NCBI RefSeq assembly: GCF_019649055.1
Contig: NW_026570323.1
Location: 186,001-250,000 of the forward strand
Origin: Paramacrobiotus metropolitanus
Taxonomy: Eukaryota; Tardigrada; Eutardigrada; Parachela; Macrobiotidae
Reading direction: 5' to 3'
DNA: 64,000 nt
Positions within the stretch are counted from its first letter, which is position 1, and each line of letters begins with the position of its first letter. The notes under the pieces are model-generated. The model searched no databases. It was not told where the DNA came from and saw nothing but the letters and a program-made list of their open reading frames with translations. Position numbers and translations under genes: made by a program. Below are positions 1 to 36,519 of this stretch, one piece after another.

Positions 1-2
1 AT

Positions 3-12262: not shown

Positions 12263-12280
12263 TGGTAGCAGAGCCGACAG
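12263..12280 (+). promoter_or_regulatory. Candidate tRNA primer-binding site of element B
   Basis: TGGTAGCAGAGCC follows directly after the LTR-like end. A TGG start matches the CCA end of a tRNA primer. The tRNA is not assigned. Confidence 0.5.
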
Positions 12281-12388
12281 CGGTTCTCTGAATTGATCTG
12301 ATTTGATTTGTGTCAGGCATATTTGGCCTGTTATCGGACGTGTTACCTGCGACCAGTAAGGCACAGGTCTGTGTGACAGCAAGGCGCA

Positions 12389-12611
12389 CACCACAAGCGG
12401 TGAAATTTCCCCCATCGGACGCGGACTTCCAGCTTCGGTTTTCGGTACAGTGTCTTCAGCGAAGACCTGTGCTGTTTCCTTAGCTGTGCAAGAGTGCAAG
12501 ATTTCAGTCGGCAGTGTTCCTCGGTACGGAGTCTTCAGCGAAGACCCGTGCTGGTGTCACTGTTACTCGGCAAGGCTTCAGCGAAGCCTAAGCCGTGGGC
12601 CACAAGCGGCG
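12389..12611 (+). repeat. Leader hairpin cluster with compensated stems
   Basis: GTCTTC-AGC-GAAGAC occurs at 12452-12466 and 12531-12545. GGCTTC-AGC-GAAGCC at 12574-12588 keeps the pairing with different bases. CACC-ACAAGC-GGTG (12389-12402) and GCC-ACAAGC-GGC (about 12599-12610) are a second family with the same loop and changed stem. The second family recurs in the tail of the element near 35085 and 35264. A packaging or dimerisation role is inferred, not shown. Confidence 0.7.
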
Positions 12612-13156
12612 AAGCGCCAAAAGGGGCGCACGGGACAAGATCAGATCAGACTCCTCCAAACTGGAGTAGAGCGCCACTACTGTTGCTACGGCAGTCAGCC
12701 GGCACAGTAAACGACCAAAAGCGTGCGGCACAACCGTTACGGTAAAACCGGCGGCAGCGCGGGAACGGACAGTGGAAGAAGAATCTGGATCATCGGGATC
12801 GATTCTTGTGGAACGGACGAGGAAACAGGTAGAAAAACTGTTATTAATTACGGGATTGGTTAGTTGGTAAAAGTGGCAATTTTCATTGGTCCGTTCTGAG
12901 CTGAGCATAGACGTAGGCGGAGTTTTGCGCACGGCACGCATGTCTGGCCGTTGACCGTGACGTCAGGCGGATATAAATTTTAAGTGGACTAACGCTATTG
13001 GTCAGTTATCTGAGCTGTGATTGGTCGAAATCTGAACTGAGTAAATTGAACTAGCGGACCAATAGGAACGAAGTAAACAACCCGAATGGGGATTTTCCGT
13101 TGAACTCGAGCTGTAATGGGAAATTTGAATTGAGATGAGATATTTGAAAGGAAAAG

Positions 13157-13565
13157 TGACCTTTAACTGAAATTGAGTTGGAAAGTGACCTTTAACCGAA
13201 ACCGAGTTCGAAAGTGACCTTTAACTTAAAATTGAGCCGGAAAGTGACCTTTTAAGTTGAGTTGAGTTGGAAAGTGACCTTTGAGATCAGAAGTTGATCT
13301 TTGGTCAAAAGTGACCTTTTAACGAAGTTGAAACCGAGTCGATTAATAGTACAGCGATATCAGCAGCTGTAGAATTATATTTGTAAAGGTGTTTCGAAGT
13401 GAAAAACGGTTTCGAAAGTCTTGTCTGGAAAGTGACCTTTAGAGCAAACCTCTCGAACTTTTTATCGAAAAAGTGACCTTTAAACGGAACTTAGCCGAAA
13501 TTTCTCAGTCGAAAAGTGACCTTTAACAGGGACTTAGAAAAATTTCGAAGTGTAAAGTGACCTTT
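13157..13565 (+). repeat. Array of TGACCTTT motifs in element B leader
   Basis: Perfect TGACCTTT starts at 13157, 13186, 13215, 13245, 13275, 13312, 13433, 13474, 13517 and 13558. The first five are 29-30 bases apart inside a degenerate tandem unit of the type GTTGGAAAGTGACCTTTAAC. The reverse complement AAAGGTCA contains the AGGTCA half-site bound by many nuclear receptors. Confidence 0.9.
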
Positions 13566-13640
13566 AGGACAACTGAACAAATCATACAATAACGTGTGTG
13601 TGAGAACAATTGACAGGAGCGTCCAAGTTATCCGATCAAC

Positions 13641-16600
13641 ATGGATAAAGACAAAGAGGAACCGACATCTAACAGCAGTCAGGGAAGCAGGAGCTCCCGA
13701 GGGTCACAGCAAAGCGCAATCGATCCCTATAAGAAGGAATATAAGTCGCTCGCACGTCCAGTCGGGCACGATAGACAGACCCGAGCGGCTGTGACCTTTG
13801 CAAGGAAGGACAGCAAAGGCAGCGACAGTACATACCAAGTGGCGCTTGGAGCTACACAGAACGAAGAGAGCTCCAGCGGAGATCGAAAGCAAACCCCCGC
13901 GTCTGTGGCGGGAGGTAAACCGATGAACCAGAAAAAGGTCACTGGGGAGGATGGAACCACAGAAAGAGGAGCGGAGACAATTGGAGCATCACAATCGGAT
14001 GCTACCACAACCGGAACGAATGAGCAGGATAAAAATGTGAACCTAGCTCAATCGGAAGTTGACAAGACAAAAGTCACCGAAGAGGAACTTGCTGAACTCG
14101 GATTGGATGACCTTTCATTGAATGATAGGACTGCAGGCGATGACCTTTGGGCAACTCCAAGGGTCTCAGACGAATCAAATGAATCGTACTTCACGGATGA
14201 CGAAACGACGATAAATATGTCCTTCCATTCGGCGATGAGACAAGCTGACCGTGCAGAAGGGATAACACCTTTCAAAGATATACCGGAGCACCTCATTGAA
14301 CGAACACAGACAGGAAAGGTCATCAACGTAAGACCGCCATCACCGAACAGTCCCACGTCAACTCTTAGGAGACGCGTGAAGGAGTTGGAAGAAGAACTCG
14401 AAGCCAAGGAGGACCAGGTGATGAAGAAGAAACAGGAATACCAAACTCGGATAGGATCATTGGATGCTCGTATTTATGAACTGGAGCAGCAACAGGGTAA
14501 CCTGGAAAACGCAGCGGACGAATGGAAAATCAAATATGAGCGCCAAAAAGAACTCGCAGAGGAATACCTGAAAATGGTAGATGACAGAGAAATGGAAGGT
14601 CATCTCGCAGTCAGTGATCTCAACGAGAGTATGTCAGAAGAGTCAGCGGAAAGGTCACGGCACTTAGCCGAATTGAAGGACGAATGCGACTCATTGAAGT
14701 TAAAGGTCACCGAAGCAGAAGCCAAAAGAGACGAGTATGCGAATAAACTGGCTGAAGCTTCACAACGACTGTTGAACAACACAAATGAGGTGTTTAAGCT
14801 GAGAAACGAACTAAAGCAGCGAGATGAGAGTATCGGAATTCTTCAGAGAGAATCGAAAGGTCATCAGAGAAGAGCCGACGAAGCCATCCAAGCGGCTAAG
14901 GACTTGAGGGACCTTACAGCCACCGAAGGTGCACGGCTGAAGAATGAGATAAGACAGGTGACAGAAGAGAATAAAAAGGTCACGGAAGAAAACAAGGAGT
15001 TGAAAGAAACCGCCAAGGCCATGGCCGAACAAGGTTCGAACTGGGAACGGGAAGCACTCCGTTTAGACGAGATGGTTACGGCGCTCGAACGGAAAGACAA
15101 GGAGTGGCAACAAACAGTCCACCAGAAGACACAAGAGATCATTAAGCTCAATACGGAGCTGATTGATATGACCCAAACAGTGATGACAAGAGAAGACGAA
15201 GTTACTCAGACAAAAGACCAATTGAAAGCGGCAGCCGAAGAATATATGAAGCTGGAAAGAGAAGTTACCCATTTGGCGGAACATATCAAAAAGGTGGAGA
15301 ATGACACTGAAAAAGTCGTTCAGGAGAAAACATTCCAGCTTCACCACCACATGTTAAAGATCAATCAGGAAAATCAGGACTTGAAAGTCCAGAAAGACCA
15401 ATCGGAGTTGAAAATCAGACGCCTCGAAGATGAGAATAAAGCGCTCAATATGTCTAATAAGCACAAAGACGAACAGCTCTTGCAATACGGAGTTAGAACG
15501 ACAACGGTGGAATCGCCTCCGCCCAGTTACAGCAAAGCGCATGAAACGGGCACGGGTAAAAGCTTCCATTTTGAAATGCCATTACGAACCGGTACAGGCA
15601 GGGGGAACGTTAAAACGGAACAAGACGGCGAAAAAGTCAAAGATGATAAGGAACCACCATCAGGCTACTCACACTCAAGCCGAGGTGACCCTTCACAATT
15701 TCCCCCACATAGCGAAGTGAACGCGTCCATCGACGAAGGGCGACGGGACAGACCCCCTAGTCGACAGGAGCGTCCAAGGAAATCCCGTTACGCTAAGCCG
15801 AGACGAAACCAAAACGATGACGACAGTAGCGAAGAAGAAGATCCAAGAGGAGGATTTGCATTGGCAAAAGCATTGAACTCCATGGCTCGGAAAACGCCAC
15901 TCGTGACCTTTGACGGCAGCCGCGACACCGTCAATGGCTGGACAAGACTGGTGAAAGAAACACTGGACACCTACGAGCTCACTGACAAACAAATAATGAT
16001 TGAAGTGGCCAGCGCAGTGAAAGGGCCGGCTAAAGGCTGGTTCGAAGGAGAAAAGGATATCGCGGCAGAAGACGGAATCGAATATACCGTAACAGAATGG
16101 ATGGACAAATTTAAAGACGAATACGGTGATCGGGACGAAGAAGTCTTAGGCCTACGCGAGGCCTACGCGAGGAAATTTGAACTGGGTAAAGAGTCGCTCG
16201 ACCAATATTATCAGGCGATGATGCGATTCAAAGCAAAAGCAAATCATTACGGAAAAACAAGCAGTGGGCTTCTTAATCGAAGGATGCAGAGTAGATAACG
16301 AACTATACAAGGCATTGCGTACACAAAAGTGCAGGACGCCAACAGACGTAAAGGACTTTTTCCGACATTGGGCTACTGGGGAGGAAAAATATAAGGCGCC
16401 GAAAGGTCAACGTAACCAGGATTACGTGACCATCCGCCAGGGTCAAGTGGAAGACATGCCACACCAGAGAATGGCAGCGGCGCCGGCCCAACAGTCACAG
16501 GAAAATCGCAGAGCAAATCCAGTTCAGGAAGCAATAAGGGAGGTCACTCTCGCCGAGGCAATGGTAGCAGCCATACAGGCGGCGGCAGTACAGATGGCGG

Positions 16601-17346
16601 CTCAAGCGAGACCAGCACCCCAGAATGTAGTCCCACTGAATATGGGAGTACCACAACAGCCAGTTAACTTTGGCGGAAACGGATATGGAAATGGAAATTG
16701 GAACGGAGGTCAAGGAAACTTCCAGAATCAGGGTCAAGGTCAAGGCAACTTTCAGCCAAATAGAGGAAACCAGAATCAGGGGTCACGGACAGAATTCAAG
16801 TTCCAGTTAATCGATGGATGGGTTGCAAATGGTGTGCAGATGTGTCAGCACTGCATGTATGGAAACCACCAAACGCAGGGATGCAAATTCGCCAACACAC
16901 CACCGGAACAGAATCCGAATCTGTTCACCTTCAGAGAATGGCAGCGACTGCGCGGGTTAGGCGGTTGGCAACAAGCGGTGGCAAATGGATACGACTTGAT
17001 AACACAATGGTACCAGCATAAGGCCACTTTCCCAAACCAACAAGGCAACGGAGGCGGCCAAGGTGGTGGTTACGGCCGTGGTGGCTACGGCCGCGGCGGC
17101 TTCAGAGGAAGAGGCAGAGGCTTCGGCCGCGGAAATTGGAATGGCGGTAACCGAGGCGGTGGGAACGGAGGCGGAAACTACCAACAGGGTGGTGGCCAAA
17201 ATAATGGTGGCGGCCAGAACATGGGAAATGGACAGAACCCTAACCCGGCAAACAATATCGGTCAACAACAAGGAAACGTGCAAGGAAATGTACAGGGCGC
17301 GCAACAAGGTGGTGCGCCGGTTCAGGGAAACGGGCAAGATCAGTAG
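13641..17346 (+). pseudogene. gag: Element B gag region with an added long coiled coil
   Basis: The N-terminus is polar and acidic. From about 14360 to 15470 the protein is a near-continuous heptad-rich coiled coil of roughly 370 residues, highly unusual for a Ty3/gypsy Gag. A capsid-like domain follows (about 15895 to 16400; motifs PLVTFDGS, GWFEGE, ESLDQYYQAMM). A Gln/Gly/Asn-rich stretch leads to a zinc knuckle CX2CX4HX4C (about 16840-16890) and a long Gly-Arg-rich tail. The knuckle is followed by CKF and QNP as in element A. The region appears broken about once; otherwise it is well preserved. Confidence 0.85.
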
Positions 17347-17367: not shown

Positions 17368-20300
17368 GTCCCGACCCTAAACCACCGGATAAAAAGGGAA
17401 TGGAAAGGTCACCTCTGCAGAATGGTACTGCAGAGAATGTGACCAATGCAACGGCTATAAGGATGCCGTCAGCGAACAAAGAAAGTGGACCGGCTATATG
17501 GATGCCGCAACCACAGCAAAGGGCTATATGGATGCCGCCACAGCAAAATGAGACGGCGATATGGATGTCGTCATTGCAAAAGGAAATTGAAGCGGCTATA
17601 AGGATGCCGCCACAACAACAGAATCAAAGGTCACCGCAGAATGGTACTGCGAGTGGAGGCGCGCAACGGGACCAAAGGTCACCGCAGAATGGCACTGCGA
17701 GTGGAAACTGTCGTGACGGTAGCGCGACACTGCGAACAGCGCAGCAAAATGAAAGGTCACCGTATTGCAGCGAAGAAGTGTTAGCGCAACGACGCGCACA
17801 ACGAAATGCAAAGATTCGCCAGGCGCTACTGAATCAAAGGTCACCACTGCAGAATGATACTGCAAGTGGAAATGGATGTCAAAAGACGAGATGTAACTGC
17901 ACACCAGAAGAAGTGGATGATGAGCAACATGCGAAATTCAGAAAATATTTGGCAGAGAAAGAGCCACGTTGCAGTTGTCGTGTAACGGGGACAGGATACA
18001 CGGAAACAGGCATCCGACCCAGATTTTGCAGTTGCTTGGAAGACAAAGACTTAAAGCAGAATACCACTAGTGACAATAAAGACGAAAGGTCACCTTCCGT
18101 AGGAAAAGTCCAAGTGAAAGGTCAAGGAGCAAGTGCGAACGTTAAAGGTCATGGTGAAAGCACCGTGTTGAAAGGTCAAGAAACAGACTTGACACTGCGA
18201 ACAGCGCAGCAAAAGAATGGCGGAAATGCACAAAACTCTGATGACTCGCTTGTGGATGCAATAACGTTGCAACGGAAGGAAATATGGCGAAAAGTGGCCT
18301 ACAGACCGAACGGAAATCACGGGATGTGGACACCCGTGACACCAAAAGCGAAACAAAAAGGGGGAATGTCGCAAGAAGATTACTGGGACATGCAACAGTT
18401 GCGAACGCAATGCGAAAGAAAGCGATTAGAAGAGTTAGTTACCGGGAAACTAACGCAAAGGTCACTGAACCCTGCCCCAGTATTCAACGCGACTGAATAC
18501 AAGAACGCACAAGCTGACATGAATAACCCGCGAAATGCCCCACCGGAAGGAAAACCTTTGAACTATGGTGAAAAAGTTCCCATACAAAGGTCGTCAAATG
18601 GCGGATTTGTCATAGAGCGCAACGAAAGGTCACAGGACTTAGCGCAAAATGAACAGAAAGGACGGTCAAAAGAGACGCCACAAACGCGACAGAGTAATGC
18701 AGTCGAAAGGTCACGGGACTTATCACAAGCACTGCAAAAGGATGCCAACGATAAGTCACCAGCCCGAACAGACGGAATGTCTTCACAAACTGACCCGATG
18801 AAAACGAATAATGAAGTGTCAGCGAAAGTGATTGAATGGATGACTCAAAAGGGATACGATATGATAACGTGTGAAAGGTCACCGGACAGCGAAGAATATG
18901 ACCTGAAGAAAGCTGACCAGATAACAAATGGGGTCATCGAGAAGCTGCGAGACAAACGAAATGAAAACCGTAAGGAGGAACTGATTCATCAGACGATAAC
19001 CGAAGTGACTAAAGGTCACGTGGATAGCACAAAAGCAAATGAGCAAGTGCAGAATGGAGAAAAGGTCATCAGTGGTAAAACGGCAACAGAGAAGCAAACA
19101 AATAAAGAGAAGCCGCGAAAATATTACGATGTCCGAACTGACGTCCCACACAGGATTGATAAGTTGAGCGAAATACTGAAAGGTCACAGTACTTCGACAA
19201 AAGGACAAGTGCCTCCCGATATGGATCCGGGACCGGTATCGCTAATCCCTGTGAAATGTAAAGTTCATACATTGAAGATTCAAAATGGAAAATTGCCCAA
19301 AAGAATTGAAGCGTATACACACGAAGTGAAAGTGGGAGACATAAAGGTCAACGCAATGTTGGACACTGGCGCTGAGACGTCGCTGATCAGCAAACCGTTT
19401 TGTGAGAAGAATGGACTTCATATGCTCCCACTACCACCAGACAGACTGGTGAGGATAAATGAAATTAGCGGAACGTCAGGATTCATGGTGACGCACTACT
19501 GTGTAGCACCAGTGACCTTGAGGAAAAAGACTAGTGAACACTCCTTTTACGTCCGACCGAAATGTGACGACGTACAGGTGCTACTGGGATTCGACTTCTT
19601 AGAAAAGAAGTTCGTACTGATGGATAACGAAGGCGAAGAGGAAACAGAAGATGATCCGAAACCAGTCGCCAAAGTTCAAGTCGGAAAGGTCACCGAACTT
19701 GCTCAAACGGCTAATAAAACGCTAATCCCAGTACCAGAGGCACAGGGAAAGGAAACGAAAAAGATGGTACAAAAAGAATTGTCAACATTGGAGCAGTGGA
19801 AAGTGATCCAAAAGGAAATAGAAAACACATTAAATCGGACACCGCTGACACAAAAGGGAAGAGAAAAGGTCATCCCAATACCAGAGGCACCGGGAATGAC
19901 AAAAGTGCAGCAGAACGTTAAAGTGCAACAGCAAGAAGTTATCCCAGTACCAGAGGCACTGGAAATGAAAATTGAAAATGGAAATGTCGAAAAAGTTATC
20001 CCAGTACCAGAGGCACTGGGCAAGGGAAATGAAAGGTCACCAATTACAGATACTGTGAACTTGGTACCAGAGTCGGATCCGAAAAACGCCAGTACGACCT
20101 TTTTCGAACCACGCCCTGTTACGAAAGATAACGAAATTGCAATTGTCAAGAAAGTCAACGAAAAGAAAAAGGAAACGCTTGCGCCAGACATGAATGAGGC
20201 GATCATATTTCTCCCGGACGGGAGAAGTATGATCGCAGATGCCTGTGAGCAAAAAGTCACAGAAAAAGAATCGGTTGAAAAAATTATCCCAGTACCAGAG

Positions 20301-23300
20301 GCACTGGGAAAGAAAGACGAAAGGTCACCGGCGATCAGAATACCAGAGCGTACTTCGAACCTTTTCGAACCACGATCTGCTACCCATAACGAAAGGTCAC
20401 CGGATAAAGCTAAAGAAAAGGTAACAGAACGTGATCCTCAAAAGGAACCCTTTCTCGAACCACACTCCGCTATCAATGACGAAAGGTCACCAACGCTTGA
20501 AGAGATAGTTGCCACACAGAAAGAAGCGGCAGCCGCAGCGAAACAATCGCTCGTGCCTGGCATGGAGTGGGCAAAGCCTATCCCAGTACCAGAGGCACTG
20601 GGAATAAAGACGGCTAAAGTGTGGAAGGATAAAAAGAGTGAAAGGTTACGAGTATTGAAACGAATAGCCGAAGAGGAACAGATGTTTACCAGAGAAATTC
20701 GCGATAAAGCGATTGAACAATTGAAAGGTCACCGAGTGAATAAAGAACAGGAGGTCATCGCATTATCCTCTGATGACGCAAGTGTGATCCAAATTGAACG
20801 AGAACAAGATGCCGCAGCACACAAAGATAATAACCCGCAAATAAGCCAAAGGACATTAACTCCAGAAGAACGAGCTAGGAGTTGTCACCACGGTTACTAT
20901 GAAGATCCGTGCAGAGTACAACCTCAATGGGAATGTGCTGAATGTCGAGAGGACGCCTCTCAAGATGACCTTTCGGAATGGCCGAAATGCAACCCTGCAA
21001 TAGCAGACCTCAAAGGTCATGGCCAAAAGGAACTGAAAGGCCTGTTACGGACAAATGAAATGTGGAAACCACACATTGAACGATATCATTGGAATAGATA
21101 TCGGGCATGGTTATCAAGTGTGAAGAACTTCATAATGGGGAGAGGAAAATGGCTAAACCATTGGCAGCAACGCGCGGATAATGGTTACCAAGACCCCCTT
21201 GATCCGGTAAAAACGGAACGAAAACTTGAAAGGGAGATGGAAGAAATGAATGAAGAGGTGCAGTTATGGGAAGATGCGAGGGTAGAACTATTCTGGGACT
21301 TCCGCATAAACCATATGTATAAAGGTCAAGGAAGAACAGTCATATTCCCGACAGGACTTGGCACACCGGTATACGAGTCAGTCGTGATGTTCTGCAAAGC
21401 ATTAAAAGAAGACAACTGGGACATATTTGACAAATATTGGACGAAATTTGAAGCGGACATCCCTATATTTGATACAAAAGAGATGCGAGAATTACAAGTA
21501 ACCCGGAAAAGAAGGTTACCGGGATTACTGATAAAGAAAAAGGTGACATTTGCACCGGACCCAGATGGAGTGGATTATCCTGAACGAGGAGGGGATACGT
21601 GGTGCATGTATGAAACAATTCCAAGTGACGACTGGGTCACCGAAGAATTGATGGCAAATTGCGTCTTTGTCGGCCCCAAACGTCCAAAAGGTTATGAAAC
21701 GGTCCAACAGGACGAAATAAAAGAAACGGAAAAGGAGGAACCAGTTAAAGAGACGAATGAAGGAAGATCAAACGAAACCGAAGAAAGTCCAAAGTCGGCT
21801 TTCGACATCGCACAGATGTTAACGGATAGAGGTGAAATGTGGAGAAAGTTTAAAGAGGAAGTGGAGCGAATATCGAATGAACAGCAAAACCCAGTAACTG
21901 AGGCAAAAAACGGGGAAAGGTCACTCGATAACGGTGAGGAATGTCCGCCGGTCGAGTTGACCGTAAAGCCATTATTAAGTCTTGAAGAAATAGACGAACT
22001 AGAAAAATCAAATCAAGAGGAACAAAGGTCAAACTCAGATCAGTCGGAAAGGTCATCAACAAGAATACGAGTAGCAAGGAGTCACCCGAGAGTCGCTACA
22101 CGAAATGGGCGAAAGGCAAAAGAAGGGGACAAACCTCTGCTCAAAAATCCGAAAGCGAAAAAACTTAGCGATTCGCAGGAAAACGAAAGTGACCTTTCAT
22201 CAGAAGATGAAGGAGTTGATGAGCGCCCACTCGAAAAGGCTGACAAAGGTCAAGCTACTGCACAAGAATATGAGAGCAGTAACTCGGATTCAGAGTGGAC
22301 GAGTTCAAGCGATAATTCAACGACTTCAGAAGATTCAGGTGTAAGTGACCTTTCAGAACAAGAGGACTTACTGGACTTGGACGAAGACGACGAAGTGGAT
22401 GAAGAAAAAGAAAAGGATATTAAAGTCAGAAGATTGAAAGTGGAAAAAGCTAGAATGTCGAAAGATGTGATTAAAGTCTACAGCGACCAGCGAATCAAAC
22501 TGAAACCGTCAAATTGCACACGCGTAAAAGTCAAGATGGGAAAATATGCACCGGCTCAAAACAAGTTGATGTTCACACCGGTCCCACAAGTGGAAACTGA
22601 AGTGCAACCGTTGGCAGGAGTGACGGACCACAGAGGAAAACATTTTGAAATTGTCATTGCGAATCATAGTAGCAAATACCGGATCGTGAAGAAAAATCAG
22701 CTTCTCGGCTACGTTGAGCCGTATGAACACATGGAAAATGTAAAGGTCAACGCCGGGACAGTAAAGAATGTACTCGAAGACCCAGAAGTTGACGATACGA
22801 CGAAAGCTGAACTGACAAAGATAATTGGAAATTTGAAATTAGGACCTGACCTCACAGAGGAACAGAAGAATGATGTGTATAATGCCATCTGGGAATTTTG
22901 GAAAGTCTTACCGACATCAAAGAAACCGTATGGAGATGTGAAAGGGGTCACTCACGTAATTGATACGGGAGATGCCAAACCAGTTAAATGTAACCCGGCC
23001 AGAACGAGTTGGACAGGCCGCGAGTTCATAACGAAGCATATCGAAGAGATGCTAGCACAAGATGTAATCGAACCGTCGGACGCCGAATGGAGTTTTCCAG
23101 TCGTCTTGGCAGTCAAGAAAAATGGCGACGGAACAATGGGAACGAGATTTTGTGTCAACTACATAATGCTCAATAAGTTAACAAGAAAGAACAATTACCC
23201 GCTACCGAATCCAGATGAGTTGCTCGACGCCTGCGCAGGCAACAAATATTACGGAAAAATGGACTTGCAAAGTGGATTCTGGCAGATCCCCATGGATCCA

Positions 23301-26300: not shown

Positions 26301-26618
26301 GCAGAAAGGTCACTGGAAGAAGGCATGGAAGCCAGTCTTCAAGTAGCAGATCGTAATGAAAAAGCTCTTTTCGAACCACGCACTGCTACGACGAACGGGA
26401 GTGACCTCATACACAAGAGAAAGGAAGAAATAGAGGCGGTCAAATCAAAAGCTGAACAATTGGGCCGCGACATAGCGAAAGCAATTGATGAACGAAAGGT
26501 CAAACAAAAGAAAAAGAAACTAACCCCAACTGAGTTGTTAACCCAGAAAGGTGAAGTGGAAGATGCGGCCGACAAAGAACTTCTTGATCGGATAACTAAA
26601 GGACGCAAAGACAAATAA
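17332..26618 (+). CDS. pol: Element B pol polyprotein (about 3070 residues)
   Basis: One long open frame; the first ATG is at 17400, but entry by frameshift from gag is likely. A repetitive N-terminal extension precedes the protease (LDTGAETS near 19360). A spacer of about 1000 residues follows. It contains repeated VIPVPEALG and FEPR-type peptides, a Trp-rich helical block (about 21060-21600) ending in KKVTFAP, an acidic stretch, and a beta-rich linker (about 22450-22730). Reverse transcriptase shows YIDD near 23450. RNase H has TVIECDAS near 23890. Integrase has an HHCC zinc domain and DDE core (about 24990-25500), and a C-terminal tail with an AT-hook KKRGRPRK near 26216. Unusually long for Ty3/gypsy pol. 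Confidence 0.93.
19718..20605 (+). repeat. Repeated PVPEALG and FEPR coding units in element B pol
   Basis: At least six copies encode (V/I)IP(V/I)PEA. At DNA level the unit is CCCAGT, nine bases, ACTGGG, so each copy can fold into a six-pair hairpin; some copies have lost one pair. Interleaved copies of TTTTCGAACCAC followed by CTGCTAC-like sequence encode FEPR-type peptides and recur near 26085, 26165 and 26368. Most are next to an AAAGGTCA word. Confidence 0.75.
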
Positions 26619-26740
26619 ACCACATAGATACAAATAAGGGTTCATTACACTAGAAATAGGAGTTGGAGAGGTGTAAAAGGTCATCACCGTTACAAAGCTA
26701 ATTGATATCGTTTCATTCTTACAGAAGGTAAGCACAGTTA

Positions 26741-29700
26741 ATGGATAGATTGGAACGACAAAACTCAGATAACTCTGATTCGGAAAGTATCGGAAATCCC
26801 TTAAAAGCATCGACTCCTAAAAGAATGGAAGGCGAATACGGTTACGACACCTCATACGGCGAAGGATCGATGTCGTCGGCAGGAACGGCACAGAACGAAC
26901 CTGGAACAGTGTATTATGGATATCCAGGACAGCCGACAAGTTACCAGGATACGGTCAACTGGGTGCACCACGGCTCGACTGCCGGAACCCAGTACACAGA
27001 ACAAGCGACGTATAATGCCCCTTACCAGTCCTACCCAGGAACGTATACCCCACCGATGGGACCTATGCAGGTGATGATGGGACCGGCAACAATGTTGATG
27101 CCGCCACCGCAACAGACCACACCGAGCAGGTTTACGGGACACAGCGGATTTAGCGGAACGATATCGACTCCAGTGCAGTCTCAAAGGGGATCGCCGATAC
27201 TGCCACCTTTCCCAACAACGGGAGGTCTGTCACTGTCGGACATTGGAGCACCTCGGTTGAGATCACCACAGCAATTGGGAGCGCAGCGACCCCATCGAAA
27301 CTCGCCACAAAAAGGAGGGAGGCGAGGAGGAAACCGATTTGATTCCCCACGACCGCGAGGCATATTGCCATCACTGGGTCCCAACTTAGACGAGACCGGA
27401 CCGGACGGGTTACGGCTGACGCCACCAGGCGAACCTTCAGTTCATGAGTATGCACCAAAACTCCCGTTGGACCTTAGAGATGACGATGCGCGTTTGAACG
27501 TGATCGTGGACGAAACGGAGAAATTGACAGAAGCGGATAGAAGGGCCATCCAGGACTTTAACAGGATGTGCCGCGACCTTTACAGAACTCATATGAGAGT
27601 TGAAGATGAGCACGCATGGTATGGAAAGTTAATCAGCCTGGAGGCTGTCATTAAACCGTGTCACATCGCCTTGAAGGAAAAGACGAAACAGATTGAAGCA
27701 AAGCGCAAGGAACATGCGATAAAGGTAGCATCGATGTGGCAGTACCACCCGTCGATAACTGGTAGGCAATGGCCTCCAATCGTCGAAAAAGTCCTTCGGT
27801 ATCTCAAAGTGTTCCCGGAACCAAGACAGATGCCGACCACCAGCGGCGCGGGACCATCCAAACCCACCGTTGCAAAAGACGCCCCGGTCGATGAAATGAC
27901 GGACGACGACCTTTTGGCAACAAAGAAGAAGATTGATGCTGTGTTAACTGAACGAGCAGAAAGGTCACGGGCCAGCTCGACCGCAGGATCAACACGCGGA
28001 CGTACCAGCTCAGTAACAGAACCTTCGAGCGGAACTACGAAAAGTGGGAAACGAATAAGGTCACCAACAAATAGCCCACCAGAAGATGGGAAGAAAGGGC
28101 AGCAGACCAAAAAGGTCACGAAGAGTAAAGTACCACAGACACCGATTCCAGTGGGTAGACAGAGTGTGCCACCCACGCCGACAAGCACCGGACCTGTGGC
28201 ACTTCGATTCCCGAAACCCAGAACTTTTACGTGTAAATACACCGGGATGGACCATAACGAACGAAAGGTCACCGCGAGGATAGTTAATAAGGCAACGAAT
28301 GAAGAGATCGAATCGTATAATCCTCTAGCGGACAGATCGGTCAAGAACGAGATTGGGGAGAAGTCAAAGAGGGAAGTTTATGAGGCGCTACAGTTCATTC
28401 CCCCAGGAGAGCGTCACAATCCAAGAGTTCTTGTTCAGATGATGAAACATGTCGTGTCGAAAGTGGCAAATGAAGAAAACGCATGGATCCGAATTAAAGT
28501 TGGCACAAACGACGACCACTTAGCATACACATACACAGAGGAAGGAAGGCTTCTGACGGTTGAAAGAATTCGCCCAAGATCGACCGCAGATCCTGACCCG
28601 AAGAAACGAACAATTGACGACTATGAGGCAATTATGAAATATACTGACGCGACATGCAGGAAAATGACATTGAAATTGGAATATGAAGCCGATCCAACGG
28701 AGATCATAACTGCGGTGATCGTTGATCAGATAACGGGGGACCCGATTCCATTTGCACCATGGGACGCGTCAGACGAAAGTGCGCGCAACGCTGATCAAAA
28801 GGCTCGCGACGAATTATGGAACCTCATCCCACCAAGCGATCGCGAGGATGCTAACGCTCATAAAAATACGATGATCAGTATGATGCGCCATCGAGCAGAA
28901 ATGGACGGAGCTCATCTCCGCATAACGAAAAATATGAGTGATGGATCATACAAGACAGGGTTCTATAATGAGAAGCTCAGTCTTCTATCGGAGATAGTGA
29001 CACAACCACCAAAGGTGCCGTCAGCTCATCTGGAAATAAACCCGGCACAAGAAGGCGGAGCCGGAGAGATGGCAGAGGCCTCCGTAGCCGAAGTGGCAGA
29101 AGCGGAGCAAACCCGACGACCATCGGAAGAAGACGATTCAGCGGAAGAAAAAGATGAAGGCGATTCGGAAGAAGAATCAACCGATGAAGAAGAAGACGAC
29201 GAAGCGGTCGAAAAAGACGATGCCCGTTCAAAAGTCGTCGTTAAACCCTCCAAAACTCGCCGTCCAAAAGTCGCACCAAAATTGGAAGAAGCGATGAGTC
29301 GTGATAAGGTTAAGAAAGGTGACTTCCTGAAGAAACGGAGGGAAGAAGAAGATAAGAAGAAAAAGAGTGGTGATGAAAGCGAGAGCAAAAGCACTGAGGA
29401 AAAGAAAGGTGAGAAGAAGAAAAAGGATAAACCGTCTTCTCCCGATGTCGAAATTCTGAACGAGTCAGTTGGAGAAAGGTCATCGTCACCCATAACGTCA
29501 AAGAAATTCGTGATCGAATCGGCCACATCGAAGTCAAAGTCAAAGGTCATTGAGCCTGAACCTACACCATCCAAGGGAAGGGTCATAGCCGTCAAACAAG
29601 TTGTCCCGGTTGTCATCTCAGCATCTACTCAGAAAGAACGTGGGGAGAAAGGACAGCGCGAGAAAGCAAGACGAGAAACGTCCCGCGAATCAGAAGCATC

Positions 29701-31633
29701 AGAAGCGAGTTTACCAAGTACTTCAACAGTTAGTACAAGGTCACAAAAGGAACCGAAAACGGCCCGTTCAAAAAGCCTGGCGGAGGCTCTGGATAAAGCA
29801 AAGAAAGCAAAGAGCGAACCGGTAAAATCTAAAAAGAAAGGGAAAGAGGCCATAAAAATAGATGCACTGGCGATGGCTACTTACATCGCACCAGATGGTG
29901 AAAGCGAGCTCGATTTCTCGGGAGACGAACTGGAATTTGATGAACCGGACAATGACAACCTGGCTACGGTAGATGAAATCGTTGCAGCGTTCGACGGTGC
30001 TGAGAAAAATTTTACGCGGACCAGGACGGCACCAGTTACAGGGAAATTTCGAACGGGCCTGAATAACTATTTGAAAGGGAAACGCCGCAGTTTCACCAAG
30101 CAGAAATTCGACGTGGTACTGGAGTATGCGCGGAACGCCGGAAAACTCATCCAGAGACATCCGAACTTCGCATACAGGGCCAAGCTCTTCAGACCAGCGA
30201 GTTCAGACAAAGCGCTGACAACTCCGAACGAAGACACCCAGATGCGAGTAGAAAGGGCAATCGCGGGGATGACGAGCCCGCTGGGATCAACGAGTCACCG
30301 CATTAGCCAATATATTAATGCTGTCTGGAATGACGGAAAAGGAATGATAAAGGAAGTTGACACGGCCACCGAACGCGTATTGCCGCGGATGATTAAGCAG
30401 AACATTCTCTCAACAACGAATGCGCACAAAGGTCTACCGATCCGATACACGCGAGTTGGCCTGATACCGCCAGAAAGGCAGACCTACTGTTACATGTCCG
30501 ACAGCCAGGACATGGAAAAAGTTGTTGTTCCGTTGAGTGGAGATCCGTCGACTCCCATACTGAATCAAATCGCACAGAAGACGGCTGAAGAAGAGGCTGC
30601 TCGGAAAAAGGCCCAGACGTCGAGAAGGTCGAAAAAGAGAGGACCAATGGACGAAGAATCGGAAGAGAGTGGTGATGATGATCCGACGCAGACGCCTCTG
30701 GAACCAGCGACAGAAAAAGATGCCGAATCAAAAGGTCAAGACACATCTGCGAACGTGGCGAAAGGTCATGAGACTCCGCGAGAGGGGGCAAAAGAAAAGG
30801 TCATGCTCCCAATGGAGAAAGCGGCGGCGGAAGCAGAAGCAGCAGCAGCATCCGCGCGCCAGGTGTTTCAAAGGTCACTATTTACACCATTAAAGGAAGT
30901 CTTTGAGAAAGAGCGATCGAAGTCGGCTGGCGAAGTGGCTACCCAAGAGACTTTGCCGCAAGAGGAAAAGAAGATAGCCGAACCAAAATCGGCGGGGTCA
31001 TCACAAGGATCATTGGCAAAGCTGAGGATTGACGAATCAGCGACAACTGACTCAACGGACTCGGCAAAATCCCCCCAGAAGACGGGAACCAAGGAGGCGA
31101 CAGATTACTCGCTTATAGCACCGTTAGACGTAACTAATCGAACATGGAACGAAGTTCAAGCTGCGCTCCAGATTATTCGAGAAAAGGAAATGCTTGGTAC
31201 CGATTTGAAGAGGCAAGTGGCCGTAAACTCAAATGGAAGGTCATCACTAAATATGACTGAACGAGTCCTGAAGCGAGCATACAAAGAGGGACGATTGGGA
31301 TGCAAATATAACAAAGACAACAAGGTTATCTACTACCTTCCGAAACAGGGCACGGAACGCACGCCCAGACTGAAAATGGAACTGGAGGCGTGGAAGATAG
31401 CCATTACAGATGTGGTTTTGGACGCCATTGGCGGCACCAATGGAGTGTCGTGGGGTGACCTTTCAAACTTCATGGCCGTTCACTACGAACTTGGAGAATT
31501 GAACATTGAAAGTGACAAGGAATGGATCAAGAACGCCGTAGAGGCACTTGTTGCAGATGAAGTGCTCCATATCAAACAGGATGGCCGAGTTGACTTTAAA
31601 CCATATCAACCGTCGGCGAAGGAATCTGAATGA
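26741..31633 (+). CDS. Element B ORF3: 1630-residue accessory protein, tandem winged-helix-like C-terminus
   Basis: Starts at the ATG at 26741, 17 bases after an acceptor-like CATTCTTACAG. The N-terminus is Tyr/Gly/Pro-rich. Around residues 508-620 and 653-765 there is an internally duplicated domain (each copy has a helix ending in IPPGER or IPPSDRE, then a beta-rich part). A long acidic and Lys/Glu-rich region follows. Residues about 1460-1625 contain two winged-helix-like units ending YYLPK and FKPYQ, equivalent in position to those of element A ORF3. It is more than three times the length of the A protein. No membrane segments. Unknown function; DNA or RNA binding is inferred. Confidence 0.75.
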   Translation: MDRLERQNSDNSDSESIGNPLKASTPKRMEGEYGYDTSYGEGSMSSAGTAQNEPGTVYYGYPGQPTSYQDTVNWVHHGSTAGTQYTEQATYNAPYQSYPGTYTPPMGPMQVMMGPATMLMPPPQQTTPSRFTGHSGFSGTISTPVQSQRGSPILPPFPTTGGLSLSDIGAPRLRSPQQLGAQRPHRNSPQKGGRRGGNRFDSPRPRGILPSLGPNLDETGPDGLRLTPPGEPSVHEYAPKLPLDLRDDDARLNVIVDETEKLTEADRRAIQDFNRMCRDLYRTHMRVEDEHAWYGKLISLEAVIKPCHIALKEKTKQIEAKRKEHAIKVASMWQYHPSITGRQWPPIVEKVLRYLKVFPEPRQMPTTSGAGPSKPTVAKDAPVDEMTDDDLLATKKKIDAVLTERAERSRASSTAGSTRGRTSSVTEPSSGTTKSGKRIRSPTNSPPEDGKKGQQTKKVTKSKVPQTPIPVGRQSVPPTPTSTGPVALRFPKPRTFTCKYTGMDHNERKVTARIVNKATNEEIESYNPLADRSVKNEIGEKSKREVYEALQFIPPGERHNPRVLVQMMKHVVSKVANEENAWIRIKVGTNDDHLAYTYTEEGRLLTVERIRPRSTADPDPKKRTIDDYEAIMKYTDATCRKMTLKLEYEADPTEIITAVIVDQITGDPIPFAPWDASDESARNADQKARDELWNLIPPSDREDANAHKNTMISMMRHRAEMDGAHLRITKNMSDGSYKTGFYNEKLSLLSEIVTQPPKVPSAHLEINPAQEGGAGEMAEASVAEVAEAEQTRRPSEEDDSAEEKDEGDSEEESTDEEEDDEAVEKDDARSKVVVKPSKTRRPKVAPKLEEAMSRDKVKKGDFLKKRREEEDKKKKSGDESESKSTEEKKGEKKKKDKPSSPDVEILNESVGERSSSPITSKKFVIESATSKSKSKVIEPEPTPSKGRVIAVKQVVPVVISASTQKERGEKGQREKARRETSRESEASEASLPSTSTVSTRSQKEPKTARSKSLAEALDKAKKAKSEPVKSKKKGKEAIKIDALAMATYIAPDGESELDFSGDELEFDEPDNDNLATVDEIVAAFDGAEKNFTRTRTAPVTGKFRTGLNNYLKGKRRSFTKQKFDVVLEYARNAGKLIQRHPNFAYRAKLFRPASSDKALTTPNEDTQMRVERAIAGMTSPLGSTSHRISQYINAVWNDGKGMIKEVDTATERVLPRMIKQNILSTTNAHKGLPIRYTRVGLIPPERQTYCYMSDSQDMEKVVVPLSGDPSTPILNQIAQKTAEEEAARKKAQTSRRSKKRGPMDEESEESGDDDPTQTPLEPATEKDAESKGQDTSANVAKGHETPREGAKEKVMLPMEKAAAEAEAAAASARQVFQRSLFTPLKEVFEKERSKSAGEVATQETLPQEEKKIAEPKSAGSSQGSLAKLRIDESATTDSTDSAKSPQKTGTKEATDYSLIAPLDVTNRTWNEVQAALQIIREKEMLGTDLKRQVAVNSNGRSSLNMTERVLKRAYKEGRLGCKYNKDNKVIYYLPKQGTERTPRLKMELEAWKIAITDVVLDAIGGTNGVSWGDLSNFMAVHYELGELNIESDKEWIKNAVEALVADEVLHIKQDGRVDFKPYQPSAKESE

Positions 31634-31995
31634 ACAGGACAAGTGTAATATGCAGCGAGTAATGAACCCTGCATATTACAGGAAAAAGCATAAAATAGTT
31701 AAAAACGAAAGAGAAAAGTTTTAAGAAACACTGAAAGTGAAAAGGTCATCTCTACAAGTAGCAATGATAAGACTAACAGAAAAGGTCACAGGAGTCAGAA
31801 AGTGCTGATAACGTGAGAAAGGTCACCACGTTACAGTGAGAGAAAGGGCGGCAGGAGCTAGGAAAGTCTCAGCTCAGTAACGGAATAGGCGTAAAAATGA
31901 TAGAAAGCCTTGATAACGGATAGGAATGGAAAGGATTAACGTGGAAAGTTTACTATGAGGGATTGTTTTCTGATTACAGATTCTAAACGGATAAA
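31634..31995 (+). other. Element B spacer between ORF3 and ORF4
   Basis: No gene seen. Three AAAGGTCA words occur in this 360-base non-coding stretch. It ends with GATTACAG (ending 31979), an acceptor-like site 16 bases before the ORF4 ATG. Confidence 0.65.
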
Positions 31996-34737
31996 ATGGC
32001 ACAAAAAGGTCAAGCCTCTTCCAAGAGCTCGGCATCGGAGATAGACAGATCTACGGGCTATAACCCCAAGTGTCCGGACTGTCTACGAAATAACAAAAAG
32101 GTCGACAAAAAGTTCCCCTGTTACACATGTATTCACAAGTTGGGAGACCCACACATCGTCTCACTCGTCGGGATCATGGAAGCTAAACGCGGGAATCTGG
32201 ATGTCTTTCGAAACCTCATCAGCGCGAGGAATTACGGCAGCATCCCAGTTGAAGAGCGCATGCTACTTGAGGATCGCTATCGGGAAGCGATCCGGAATAA
32301 TGAGAGTGGTTGGGATGAAACTTTGGAGCCGCTGAAATGCCCACAAACAGACGCATACCGACAGAAGTTTGAAGAGGATCAAGCGAAGATGCGACTTCAG
32401 AAATTGGAAGACGAACTCCGTGCAAAGATTAACGCAGAGAACAAAAGGGCAAGCGAACAGGCCGCACGAGAGACAATGCCCAGCACGTCGAGCTCAACTG
32501 TCCCAACAGCAAGTCTAAACGACGATGAAGCGCAGTTAATACGTCAGTCTCTCATCATTCAGATCGACACGTTGACGAAAGACCCCGCGGCTATGCAACA
32601 GGACGTATTTGACATGTTGTTACGGGAAAAAATGAGACTGCAGAAAGGTTTTGCTCCGGCGCCATACATAAAGAAAGCAGTGGAAGAACGTATGGCAGAG
32701 CTGCGCAGATCCCGTCAAACTGAGAGTGACGTCTTGCACGCGTTCAGAAGTTTCAAACGGGATGAAGGCTTTATACGACCGCGATCGCCTCCGCATAGAG
32801 AAAGGTCACGCGGACATTCACGCGAACATGAGCGGACTTCTGAAAAACGAAGTGAAAGGTCACGCGAGTACTCTCGCGAAAGGACACGCGACTATCACAG
32901 CGAAAGGTCACGCGAACATTCTCGCGACCGAGATTACCGTGGCGGAAGAGGATGGGTACGCCATGGAAATGAGATAACGGAAACGGGTATTCAGCGGAAA
33001 ATCGATACGGCGAAGATTCTGGCTGCAACAAGGGGACGCGAAGAACAACGGCGTGCGGAAACATTCCGCACAGAGCCTGAAAAAGAAGGTCATCAGGTGC
33101 CGTTGGGAGTTCCATTCCGTAATCGTAATGTCCGCATGTCAACACCTGAAAGGTCATGGGACAAGCGACGCGAACGTACCCGAAATCGAACACCAGATCC
33201 AAAGGACAAGCAATGGCAAGAACGAGCCAAGTACTATGCGAGTTTTGAACCGGGCACAAGTAAAAGGTCATCGAGCACGGAGCGGGAAGACTCACCCCCG
33301 AAGTATCAGCGAATGGAGTCAACGGTCCATGTAGTTGATCCAATCGTGAATGCGATACAAGACGTACAGGAAGACGATACGATGGAGGGGACCAACTCAG
33401 TCGTCGAAGCGTCTCAAGAAAATGTGACCCATCGAAGAAATGTACTTCTTGATAGTGACCTACAACCTGCCTCATCGGCGAGTAATGAACCGCCGCAGCG
33501 AGAACTTGAGGAGCGACGCGAACAAGAAGTTCAGCGTGAAGCGAGTGACCGGCGCGTAAATGAGCAACGGAAAATTTCCAGATTCAATAACCGACAACCC
33601 GATTCCATTGATATGGAATATAATATGAATGATATCGACGAACAGACAGTGGAAATTTGTCGATACTTTGGCATCGAAAACGATTCGGTTGAAGCTAACA
33701 AGATTGGCACCATACTGAATCAGCTACGTCAATTCTTACTGGATTCCGGCTACGCTAGGGAGATTAAGAGGGGAGTAGAAGAAGGAACTTTCCGCCGGTT
33801 GTACATTCCTCGTGACTCCGCACGAGATTGTTATCTCCCCATCCGACGAAACGGATTACACAGTTTGCTGGATTTGAGTCTATTGGATGTGCCATTGGAC
33901 ACGACTGACCCAGTCGGCATGACACAATTCTGGTACACAGACTATGACGAACGACAGGAATATGTGGCTCAGTTCGTTTTACGACACGTGAACCCGGCCT
34001 TCAAGTTGCTCGCAGCTAGAGCATCAATCGGACTACAAGTGGACCCGAAAGACTATGCCGCAAAAAGGATGGGGCAAAAAGTCTTTGCTGCGAGACTGGC
34101 ACATTATAAAACACAGAATCAATTGGTGTCCAACACAATGAAGGACGATATTCCACCATTTTTCCGACCTCACGTCGTTAAGTTGGGAGAACCTATGGAA
34201 CATGTTGGGATAGCCCACACGGCTCGCAAAGCGTTAAAGAAGTGCAGGACACGAATGGAAAAGGGCAATCTTGTAGCGCGTCATGCCTCCCAAGTGGAAG
34301 AGAGGATTAATCGCATCAAAGATACCATGGGGAGCGATTATGTGGAACCAGTAGACGGGGTCGATGTCTACGTTAACGAATTTCTGGTCAACAAAGGCGA
34401 CCGACGCCCAGAACGCGCTCCTAACCAGATAGGAAGACGCGGCCTGCGAAACCAGCAGCTTCGCGAAAATCTTGCCGATGTACAGCGCCGATTGGCGGAC
34501 GACCCTAATAACCGGAGACTACGGTTAGAAGAAAACGACGCACGCCATCGAGTCGAGGCGGTAAAACGCAGTCGCCAAGGGAAAGGTCGTGGCCAACGTG
34601 CAGTTGACCCAGCAAAGGTCATGGCGGTTGATTCAACGGAACCAGTCGACCGAACATCTGATCGTAATCAACCGGAAAGCACTAAGAAACGCCCGCCGAG
34701 AGACGGCGAGGAAGACGATTCAAATGAAATGGAATAG
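31996..34737 (+). CDS. Element B ORF4: Cys-cluster, Arg-Ser-rich, conserved unknown domain
   Basis: About 913 residues in one frame. CPDC, then CYTC and a His (about 32068-32133), form a probable zinc site matching element A ORF4. A charged helical region follows. About 32790-32950 encodes an Arg-Ser/Glu repeat (motifs SERSRE, ERTRDYH) in which several codon runs are AAAGGTCA words. About 33620-34060 is the helical domain shared with element A, including the run YVAQFVLRHVNPAFKL. The C-terminus is basic then acidic. RS-type sequence suggests RNA-binding or splicing-factor contacts, but this is an inference. No known family recognised. Confidence 0.75.
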   Translation: MAQKGQASSKSSASEIDRSTGYNPKCPDCLRNNKKVDKKFPCYTCIHKLGDPHIVSLVGIMEAKRGNLDVFRNLISARNYGSIPVEERMLLEDRYREAIRNNESGWDETLEPLKCPQTDAYRQKFEEDQAKMRLQKLEDELRAKINAENKRASEQAARETMPSTSSSTVPTASLNDDEAQLIRQSLIIQIDTLTKDPAAMQQDVFDMLLREKMRLQKGFAPAPYIKKAVEERMAELRRSRQTESDVLHAFRSFKRDEGFIRPRSPPHRERSRGHSREHERTSEKRSERSREYSRERTRDYHSERSREHSRDRDYRGGRGWVRHGNEITETGIQRKIDTAKILAATRGREEQRRAETFRTEPEKEGHQVPLGVPFRNRNVRMSTPERSWDKRRERTRNRTPDPKDKQWQERAKYYASFEPGTSKRSSSTEREDSPPKYQRMESTVHVVDPIVNAIQDVQEDDTMEGTNSVVEASQENVTHRRNVLLDSDLQPASSASNEPPQRELEERREQEVQREASDRRVNEQRKISRFNNRQPDSIDMEYNMNDIDEQTVEICRYFGIENDSVEANKIGTILNQLRQFLLDSGYAREIKRGVEEGTFRRLYIPRDSARDCYLPIRRNGLHSLLDLSLLDVPLDTTDPVGMTQFWYTDYDERQEYVAQFVLRHVNPAFKLLAARASIGLQVDPKDYAAKRMGQKVFAARLAHYKTQNQLVSNTMKDDIPPFFRPHVVKLGEPMEHVGIAHTARKALKKCRTRMEKGNLVARHASQVEERINRIKDTMGSDYVEPVDGVDVYVNEFLVNKGDRRPERAPNQIGRRGLRNQQLRENLADVQRRLADDPNNRRLRLEENDARHRVEAVKRSRQGKGRGQRAVDPAKVMAVDSTEPVDRTSDRNQPESTKKRPPRDGEEDDSNEME

Positions 34738-36369
34738 TGTTGGTCGTTAGGATCACACTATTAAAAGGACGTCTACGGCATTTGTCGGTACGTCACAAAA
34801 ATGAAAAATGGTGTTGTATATGAGGGCGATATGACTTGTCTACATAAACTGTATTTGTGTATTTGTTGTTTTCAGCGTTTATAGCACAGAACCGCAAAGG
34901 ATAAAGAAATCATGTGGAGCATCGATTGGGGTTAAAATTGATTCGGTCTATAATGCCGGCCCCAAGGGAGTAGTTACGGCAGTTAGCCGGCTCTCCTCCT
35001 TAAGCGACTCAGTGTTACAAATCGGCAAGAGAAACTACGGTAACCAAGCCGGATCTCTTGAAGACGAAAGGGGGCCACAAGCGGCGAAAAAGAGAAAGAC
35101 AACAGGTGGAAATATTAATGGGGTTGAAATTGATTCGGTCTATTAGCCGGCCCCATCGGAGATGCTACGGTAATTATGCCGGCAATCTCTTTAATCGGTT
35201 CAGTGTCAAAATTCAACGAGAGAAATAACGGTAATCAAGCCGGATCTCTCGTACGGAAGCTGGGCCACAAGCGGCGAACAAGAGTAAAAGATCTAATGTG
35301 GAAGCGTCATGGGGTAAATTTAATGCGGTAGTTAGCCGGCCCCATCAGAGATGTTACGGTAAACTCTGCCGGCACTCTGGCCGCTCGAGGCATATTGAAG
35401 TGGGATGTGCGACGGAAAGGTCAAAGTGAAAGCTTTACCAGGGAGGCAAGCGAAGACATGCTTGAAAGTCGTTATAAATCGGCTGAGTTCCTCCATGACC
35501 TTTAATGGAAGTTTGAAATGAACTCGGATGACCTTTGGAATCATTAATGTCCAACAGAGTCACCGCACCGGAGTTTAAGTCGCATGACCTTTGGGACCAT
35601 TAACCCAAAATGAGTCGCACATCTCAACGGATCATCTCGACAAAGGATGACCTTTACCAGGGAGGAAGCGAACTACGCTTGTCTACATGACGTCCCTCCA
35701 TGACCTTCACTGGATCTCATTTTGAAGTCGTACAATTGATACGCACTATATTCCAAAGATGAAGCAGTATTCCTAAGTCGTACTTGATACGCACCTGATT
35801 CTCAAGCGGATTGTGATTACAAGTCGCATTACGGATGCGCGAAGTTGCTCAACAGAGCGGAATGGATTAACGTGCGGAAAACGGTGGACAGGACCTGTGA
35901 CCTTTACGAGTCAGAAATGGAGGATCCTAGTCTACTTTTGATTAATACTTTTGTTGATCTTATAACTGTTGATCTGTTTTATATTAGAATTGATATTGAA
36001 TGGTATTTTGATATAGATCTCTTTATTCACATTGTGCATTTGGAATTGATGTGATAAAACGGAATAAGAGAATTTGATGTTTTTGAGCACACACAGACAC
36101 TGGCGACCGTCGTTTTCGTGGATTCGGGAGCGTGTCCAGCCTCACAGGAGCTCGGCATCCCCCCAGAGGCATGTGAGCGGGGGTTCACTTGCGTTCACGT
36201 CCGCAACGCTACGCCACCGGATTACGTGTCTGTGTTGTGTCTCGCCTTTGATTGGCTTGCGTTATGTTAGTGGGCGCGGCTTAGCACGTGCTGCACAGCG
36301 TTGCACGCTGTTGAACGGGCTCCACGCTTTACGATCGAGCTGCGCCGATCAGAATTGATTTTCTGTTCT
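34738..36369 (+). other. Element B non-coding tail (3' untranslated and U3-like)
   Basis: No gene seen. It starts with a 190-base tandem repeat array. Paired repeats around CCAGGGAGG-AAGCG and TGACCTTTGG follow (35430-35720), then an AT-rich stretch (35930-36060), then a GC-rich promoter-like part (36080-36350) with an inverted CCAAT. At least six TGACCTT/AAGGTCA words occur. How much of this belongs to the 3' LTR cannot be decided, because the matching 5' LTR is not present. Confidence 0.6.
34928..35395 (+). repeat. About 191-base tandem repeat, two and a half copies
   Basis: Copies start near 34928, 35120 and 35311 with GGGGTTNAAATTGATTCGG-like sequence, then AGCCGGCCCC, AACGGTAA-C-AAGCCGGATCTCT, and GGCCACAAGCGGCGAA. 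The last motif is also in the leader at 12597, so the two ends of the element share a structured module. Confidence 0.85.
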
Positions 36370-36517
36370 CCAGACTTTTCAATATTAAAAGTCAGCGATT
36401 TACGGTGCGACGTTTGTGTTTCCGCATAGCTCGCGATCCATATCGTATCGCTCGCTTCCGCAGGATAGATTCCGTTTCTATCTCTGCATCTGGATCACAG
36501 TTGGATCTAGCATTAGA
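36370..36517 (+). repeat. Right terminal LTR-like block of element B
   Basis: Near-identical to 12121-12262, including the end CTAGCATTAGA. It is followed directly by host sequence starting GGTATATAAC rather than by a primer-binding site, so it marks the right end of the retroelement. Confidence 0.85.
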
Positions 36518-36519
36518 GG

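Follow-up and report, generated by a model that had tools for sequence, protein, structure and literature searches.

The window, the whole 64,000-nucleotide stretch of Paramacrobiotus metropolitanus DNA that was analyzed, contains a Ty3-type LTR retrotransposon (element B, positions 12263-36517) with a body of ∼24 kb. It is preceded by a related Ty3-type element (element A, positions 1-12262, plus strand) that holds zero copies of the octamer AAAGGTCA (hereafter, the word) and 43 copies of ATCGAT (expected 10). The window copy of element B starts at the 3′ end of element A and is missing its 5′ U3; the R-U5-like end of element A (12117-12262, plus strand) is a 91% match to the 3′ LTR of element B (36172-36521, plus strand, ∼350 bp, zero words), and this shared stretch together with the missing 5′ U3 suggests a chimeric A-B junction. 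Immediately after the 5′ LTR, at the position expected for a tRNA primer-binding site, lies TGGTAGCAGAGC. The leader runs for 895 bp from the end of the 5′ LTR to the first word and then carries an array of 10 words (13157-13565), all on the minus strand and each within AAAGGTCACTTT, at successive spacings of 29, 29, 30, 30, 37, 121, 41, 43, and 41 bp.

Five ORFs follow on the plus strand. The gag-like ORF (13641-16298; 885 aa), to which the gag of element A is weakly similar, holds 10 words (six plus, four minus), and ORF2 (16264-17346; 360 aa), rich in glycine, asparagine, and glutamine, holds one. The pol ORF (17400-26618; 3072 aa; 43 words, 39 plus and four minus) encodes protease (residues 642-735), reverse transcriptase (RT; 1907-2069), RNase H (2134-2260), and integrase (2514-2686) domains, in the order found in Ty3/gypsy elements. 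Downstream are ORF4 (26741-31633; 1630 aa; 10 words) and ORF5 (31996-34737; 913 aa; seven words), the latter with N-terminal cysteine pairs CPDC/CYTC. The four long ORFs other than pol had no Pfam match at an E-value of 0.001. Ahead of the 3′ LTR, a non-coding stretch (35416-35905) holds a further six words, five of them on the minus strand.

Besides matches at 85-91%, a search with the RT sequence gave at least 56 with protein identities of 93-98%, some of them partial and the window copy not counted (79 scored of 1753 candidates). The 3′ LTR of element B matched 5′ LTRs at 18 of 20 loci, with L019 lacking a match. These 5′ LTRs (window copy and L019 excluded) contained no word in 6394 bp, and the first word lay 867-914 bp beyond the LTR in each of the 18 copies, although homologous copies amount to one observation repeated. 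With the LTRs free of words, a promoter motif was ruled out.

Enrichment, strand, and spacing of the word

Element B contains 91 exact copies of AAAGGTCA (67 on the plus strand and 24 on the minus strand), distributed as 10 in the leader, 71 in ORFs, four between ORFs, and six in the 3′ tail, in agreement with an earlier note on this DNA that had placed such words in the leader, between genes, and in the tail as well as in pol. The shorter 7-mer AAGGTCA/TGACCTT occurs 105 times, and 91 of these belong to the full octamer. That note had counted about 50 of the 7-mers in pol by eye, and there are exactly 50 (45 plus, five minus). Its estimate that about one would be expected by chance was too low, since shuffles that preserve the protein and codon use keep the peptides KGH, ERS, and KVT and gave a mean of 6.1 in pol; the largest values among 200 shuffles were 13 on the plus strand and three on the minus strand, so the observed 50 is still far outside. 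Across the five ORFs (200 shuffles per ORF), 71 words (62 plus, nine minus) were observed compared to 5.6 in the shuffles (5.2 plus, 0.4 minus), and the codon-preserving control that the note had proposed thus did not reproduce the count. Plus-strand words are read in every phase, as the note stated (9, 19, and 11 octamers of pol in phases 0, 1, and 2). Minus-strand words occupy two phases; a word in the third would create an in-frame TGA stop.

The word is exact, and its surroundings are not. The 24 possible one-mismatch variants each occur zero to seven times in element B, whereas neutral decay after duplication should have left near-misses in plenty. Sequences flanking the words are varied except in the leader, which rules out a longer repeat unit as the source of the words. 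The base that follows the 91 words is C in 54 cases, T in 25, A in 12, and never G. Within pol, the conserved enzyme domains contain two of the 43 words, though they make up 1578 of the 9219 bp. Word positions showed a 10.0-bp periodicity (r = 0.249, one of ten periods tried).

The strand ratio of 62:9 in ORFs is near the composition-only expectation given by the shuffles, which fits an orientation-neutral site. In the leader and tail, 15 of 16 words are on the minus strand although the local composition favors the plus strand; the leader units look tandemly duplicated, and the minus bias there may therefore reflect few events. None of the 90 start-to-start spacings in element B is below 24 bp. 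When the words were jittered, ∼9 to 11 spacings below 24 bp were expected and none of 5000 trials lacked them, at each width of 50, 100, 200, and 500 bp. Other copies (L004-L053 plus L001, L003, L080, L082, and L083, which are not independent) commonly have a 20-bp spacing in their leaders and few shorter ones, namely 7 and 16 bp at a duplicated locus (L001/L003) and 12 bp in one leader. A minimum spacing of ∼20-24 bp resembles the steric clearance that a single protein on each word would need, and it speaks against dimeric nuclear-receptor sites. The adjacent half-site pair AAAGGTCAAAGGTCA occurs three times genome-wide compared to nine for its backward control, and dimeric sites of the DR1-DR5 type were ruled out, although the one duplicated locus L001/L003 does contain a 7-bp pair. 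The nuclear-receptor connection raised by the earlier note is accordingly plausible for a monomer site only. Two sequences chosen through a search for double words, L001 (G000:C7 2151198-2154212) and L003 (C370 13779-16793), seem to be copies of each other; with 29 words per 3 kb, each is denser than the element in the window.

Conservation of the word among copies

We compared the window copy of pol with 29 other copies at synonymous third positions. The fraction differing was 0.016 within words (36 sites) and 0.312 outside words (1343 sites); codon-matched draws from outside words gave 0.295, and none of 20,000 draws was as low as 0.016. Third positions within 12 bp of a word differed at 0.273 (94 sites). 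Words were ascertained in the window copy alone, which removes the bias of an earlier run restricted to sites in at least 15 copies, and copies were counted only where the first two codon bases agree. Using 30 copies of a 4.65-kb pol piece, each serving as the reference in turn, the retention of words was 0.88-0.97 compared to 0.30-0.45 for other 8-mers; per reference copy, 1-6% of the other 8-mers were retained as well as the mean of the word, as conserved protein would give. Retention was 0.90-0.97 for plus-strand words (13 sites) and 0.88-0.91 for minus-strand words (five sites), and this held in the open phases. One repeat-rich pol copy that was kept in the analysis (L046) abounds in 7-mers unrelated to the word (GTACAGG alone occurs 31 times in 4.65 kb) and still has eight words; its 7-mer excess is probably a tandem array.

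The word edges were also examined in the non-coding leader. Compared with 19 other copies, the eight bases of the window words disagreed at 0.00-0.04, the CTTT that follows at 0.05-0.11, and the further flanks at 0.08-0.50, including 0.25 directly before the word and 0.32 directly after CTTT. Constraint in the leader thus ends at the word edges. Per-base disagreement at 14 pol words was 0.01-0.02, and in the smaller gag sample (nine words) the contrast was weaker, with 0.02-0.12 within words and 0.03-0.38 around them. Selection on the nucleic acid, independent of reading frame and in coding and non-coding DNA alike, is strongly supported by these data. The same conclusion, as opposed to codon or protein selection, had been drawn in the earlier note, and the shuffles, the codon-matched third positions, the retention by phase and strand, and the sharp non-coding edges all bear it out.

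Other words in related elements

Ten relatives sampled by their pol sequences (85-90% RT identity and 68-77% DNA identity to element B) differed in their content of the word, the site table covering 11 of 15 sequences. Three of them (L080, L082, and L083) have 7-14 words per 4.6 kb and cluster with the element B copies with support of 90/89, under the tool's starred level. In pieces of about 4.5 kb, L074, L075, L076, and L081 have zero words and L077-L079 have three each. Hence AAAGGTCA is lineage-specific, with seven of the ten sampled relatives holding zero to three words.

A replacement octamer as sharp as that of element B was sought in the word-free relatives and not found; looser motifs only were present. 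Across 13.6 kb of the word-free copy C97, AGNTGA occurs 99 times (37 expected) and AGCTGA 39 times (7.5 expected), and its pol has 29 AGNTGA compared to 14 in synonymous shuffles (sd 3), about a twofold excess. Among four word-free copies, GAGCTGA was retained at 0.95, with a 7-mer mean of 0.55, and other 6-mers outranked AGCTGA in retention in the C97 group. For L077-L079, the retention of AGCTGA did not exceed the average (0.60 compared to 0.62). The AGNTGA-type motif in C97 relatives was found post hoc by scanning many patterns and is provisional.

Element A, whose RT region is 52-61% identical to that of element B, yielded a firmer candidate. Its pol has 65 ATCGA/TCGAT compared to 23 in shuffles (sd 4). 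In a retention scan of three fetched copies, scored as excess retention multiplied by the root of the count and thus favoring frequent words, ATCGA ranked first of 369 5-mers and ATCGAT first of 908 6-mers, with ATCGAT retained at 0.80 compared to a mean of 0.425; rarer 6-mers reached a retention of 1.0, and another word led at seven bases. Third positions within ATCGAT differed at 3 of 24 and 1 of 24 sites in two copies, compared to 166 of 609 and 170 of 603 outside. The core is looser than that of element B, with neighbors that keep the CG intact likewise raised. ATCGAT as the word of element A is firmer than the motif of the C97 relatives, and conserved words of this kind are probably a general feature of the clade, each lineage having a different one. 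At 10786-11008, the last ORF of element A contains a direct repeat (189-column match, 80% identical, offset of 36-39 bp) that encodes repeated RLRQSGGCGN-like units. For the ORF of element A at the position of ORF4, database relatives were sought and none were found.

The word in the host genome

Genome-wide, AAAGGTCA occurs 42,562 times compared to 15,522 for the backward word (2.7-fold), and AAAGGTCAG accounts for 4042 of these. Backward controls are good to a factor of about two, as the one-mismatch word AAAGGACA is present at half the level of its own control (6039 compared to 12,642), so a twofold difference such as that of AAATCGAT (10,369 compared to 5051) means little. Within the window, element A contains zero words and the 27.5 kb beyond the 3′ end of element B eight, compared to 91 in element B, so that host DNA does contain the word. 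Much of the genomic excess comes from element copies, perhaps not all of it. One tandem array (G000:C1:2537724-2538368) has AAAGGTCAG every 90-91 bp in eight units.

We examined the following base for 100 plus-strand words listed from C1:1-831757. Twenty-four were in one cluster, and four of the other 76 were followed by G, compared to 15.6% (2427 of 15,522) for the backward word. Twenty of the 76 were chosen as isolated; none of these was followed by G, and one of the 20 matched pol-family DNA among the sequences compared. The isolated words may be old element relics that are too diverged for blastn, or a host factor with the same specificity is possible, and the shared absence of a following G fits the host factor better.

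Discussion

With a probability of roughly one half, we interpret AAAGGTCA as an address in double-stranded DNA that is read by a protein and maintains the body of the element in an active or unsilenced state. The exactness and spacing of the words suggest that a protein occupies them, and the retention of minus-strand words almost as well as plus-strand words points to double-stranded DNA as the target. According to this proposal, a sequence-specific protein would bind AAAGGTCA followed by C, T, or A, the ∼90 repeats of the word would mark the lineage's own DNA, and the bound protein would prevent silencing of the integrated element throughout its 24-kb body, as VANC proteins do for VANDAL elements. 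The anti-silencing role is suggested by analogy with that system.

VANDAL/VANC is an anti-silencing system of Arabidopsis (Hosaka 2017, PMC5735166; Sasaki 2023, PMC10398659). The former study describes VANC21 as binding YAGTATTAY in VANDAL21, places this motif in non-coding regions (two exon probes that were tested lack it), and states that related VANDALs carry other motifs that are quickly gained or lost (PMC5735166). The resemblance to element B lies in a short motif accumulated within the element, with tandem units in non-coding parts, and in motifs that differ between related elements and change between close relatives; in the relatives of element B, different motifs are firm for element A and weaker for the C97 relatives. 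That an element is targeted by a protein it encodes has been shown for VANDAL/VANC and is proposed for element B. VANDALs are plant Mutator-type DNA transposons, whereas element B is an animal LTR retrotransposon; the VANC21 motif is described as non-coding, whereas 71 of the 91 words of element B are in ORFs; and DUF1985/DUF287, the VANC protein, had no Pfam match in the five ORFs of element B. Because two tested features, non-coding confinement and a VANC protein, do not carry over, we say that element B works like VANDAL/VANC, its nearest precedent, and not that it is such a system.

Other comparisons are more distant. The 5′ leader of gypsy holds about a dozen Su(Hw) sites in tandem, so that element B resembles it as a Ty3/gypsy element with tandem leader sites for a protein, the binding in element B being a proposal; the gypsy sites are another word and confined to the leader, whereas element B has 81 more words in its body and 3′ end. 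The DNA uptake sequences of Neisseria and Haemophilus are short exact self-tag words in coding and non-coding DNA, but they serve natural transformation of bacterial genomes and have no mechanistic link to element B. Such words in tardigrade Gypsy elements or in retrotransposon coding regions did not appear in the titles or abstract starts of the literature matches listed, which is not proof of absence.

If the address interpretation is true, the genes of a retroelement can themselves carry a dense signal at the DNA level, this signal can differ between related lineages, and element B may be an animal counterpart of plant sequence-specific anti-silencing. Dozens of copies and lineages with two or more words would then offer a natural experiment in which a DNA-binding specificity and ∼90 sites change together. 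The results also warn that synonymous sites of transposon genes can freeze for reasons outside protein or codon use.

Recruitment of a host nuclear receptor, with no reader encoded by the element, is the strongest of the alternatives, though we regard it as doubtful. The octamer AAAGGTCA is identical to the NBRE, the monomer octamer of NR4A nuclear receptors, and monomer sites for a receptor of the NR4A, ERR, or FTZ-F1 type could gain transcription or open chromatin for the element. Stretches coding for zf-C4 are present in the host (63 matches), and its own words obey the same rule for the following base. The LTRs, however, the usual seat of enhancers, are without words; some close relatives also show enrichment of another motif in place of the word, and the isolated host words may themselves be element relics. 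By title, all of the literature containing AAAGGTCA among the matches listed concerned NR4A receptors, and the NBRE is known as a single site or a few sites in promoters; its dense dispersal in coding DNA did not appear in the titles or abstract starts of the NR4A and retrotransposon literature matches listed.

We consider a role at the RNA level improbable. Plus-strand words of the body could pair with minus-strand words of the leader and tail, or a Gag-like protein could read dispersed packaging signals. The opposite strand biases of the two regions (15 of 16 minus, 62 of 71 plus) are consistent with pairing, and the preference for the following base, Y opposite R, would lengthen the duplex by one pair. 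The bases at -1 and +2 of body words, however, do not extend complementarity to the leader, and the ORF strand ratio is what composition would give. Double-stranded DNA is favored because a reader of one-strand RNA should ignore minus-strand words, yet the five coding-region sites on that strand are kept. Very improbable is a decoy function, with the element sequestering some host DNA-binding protein that would otherwise act against it; many exact, spaced, orientation-neutral sites would serve titration too, but it offers no obvious reason for sites in the body only with empty LTRs, and one more element would add little to the 42,562 genomic words. An origin without selection on DNA, through codon usage, repeated peptides (KGH, ERSP, KVT), or short units that were recently duplicated, can be dismissed, for although these tripeptides are frequent and the leader and tail words lie in repeated units, that cause was refuted by the shuffles, by the missing one-mismatch decay products and the varied flanks outside the leader, and by synonymous sites that are frozen within words but not 12 bp away.

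If the word is indeed a protein-read address in double-stranded DNA, the protein that reads it most likely differs from lineage to lineage. That the element encodes this protein, with ORF4 as the candidate, falls somewhat short of an even chance in our estimate; a host factor, for example a monomeric nuclear receptor, is only slightly less likely. ORF4 is attractive because closer relatives have a related motif and distant ones an unrelated motif, as a co-evolving reader would give. More tentatively, animal LTR retrotransposons may have a system of private addresses: each lineage may write its own word through the whole body and also through its genes, where a co-evolving reader would coat the spaced sites to protect or activate them, with word and reader changing together as lineages split. 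Several observations weigh against the address interpretation. Spacings below 24 bp occur in other copies, 1-6% of the other 8-mers per reference copy are kept as well as the average word, and the minus bias of the leader and tail could be explained by tandem duplication or an RNA role. Moreover, judging from its sequence, the ORF4 C terminus does not appear to track the word clearly: in ORF4 pieces beside word-bearing relatives (L089 and L090, assigned to the elements of L083 and L082 by nearness only), the putative first-domain helix is nearer that of the word-free C97 than that of element B, whereas L089 shares KDNK of the putative wing with element B. The C-terminal region evolves fast, and its 230 residues are predicted in the order HHHEE-HHHEE by a low-confidence model, both structure models being poor (pLDDT of 38.5 and 51.8). 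A profile comparison of ORF4 with the ORF of element A at the same position found nothing. Relatives of ORF4 (26741-31633) are filed in public databases as host proteins, one of which is named golgin-like.
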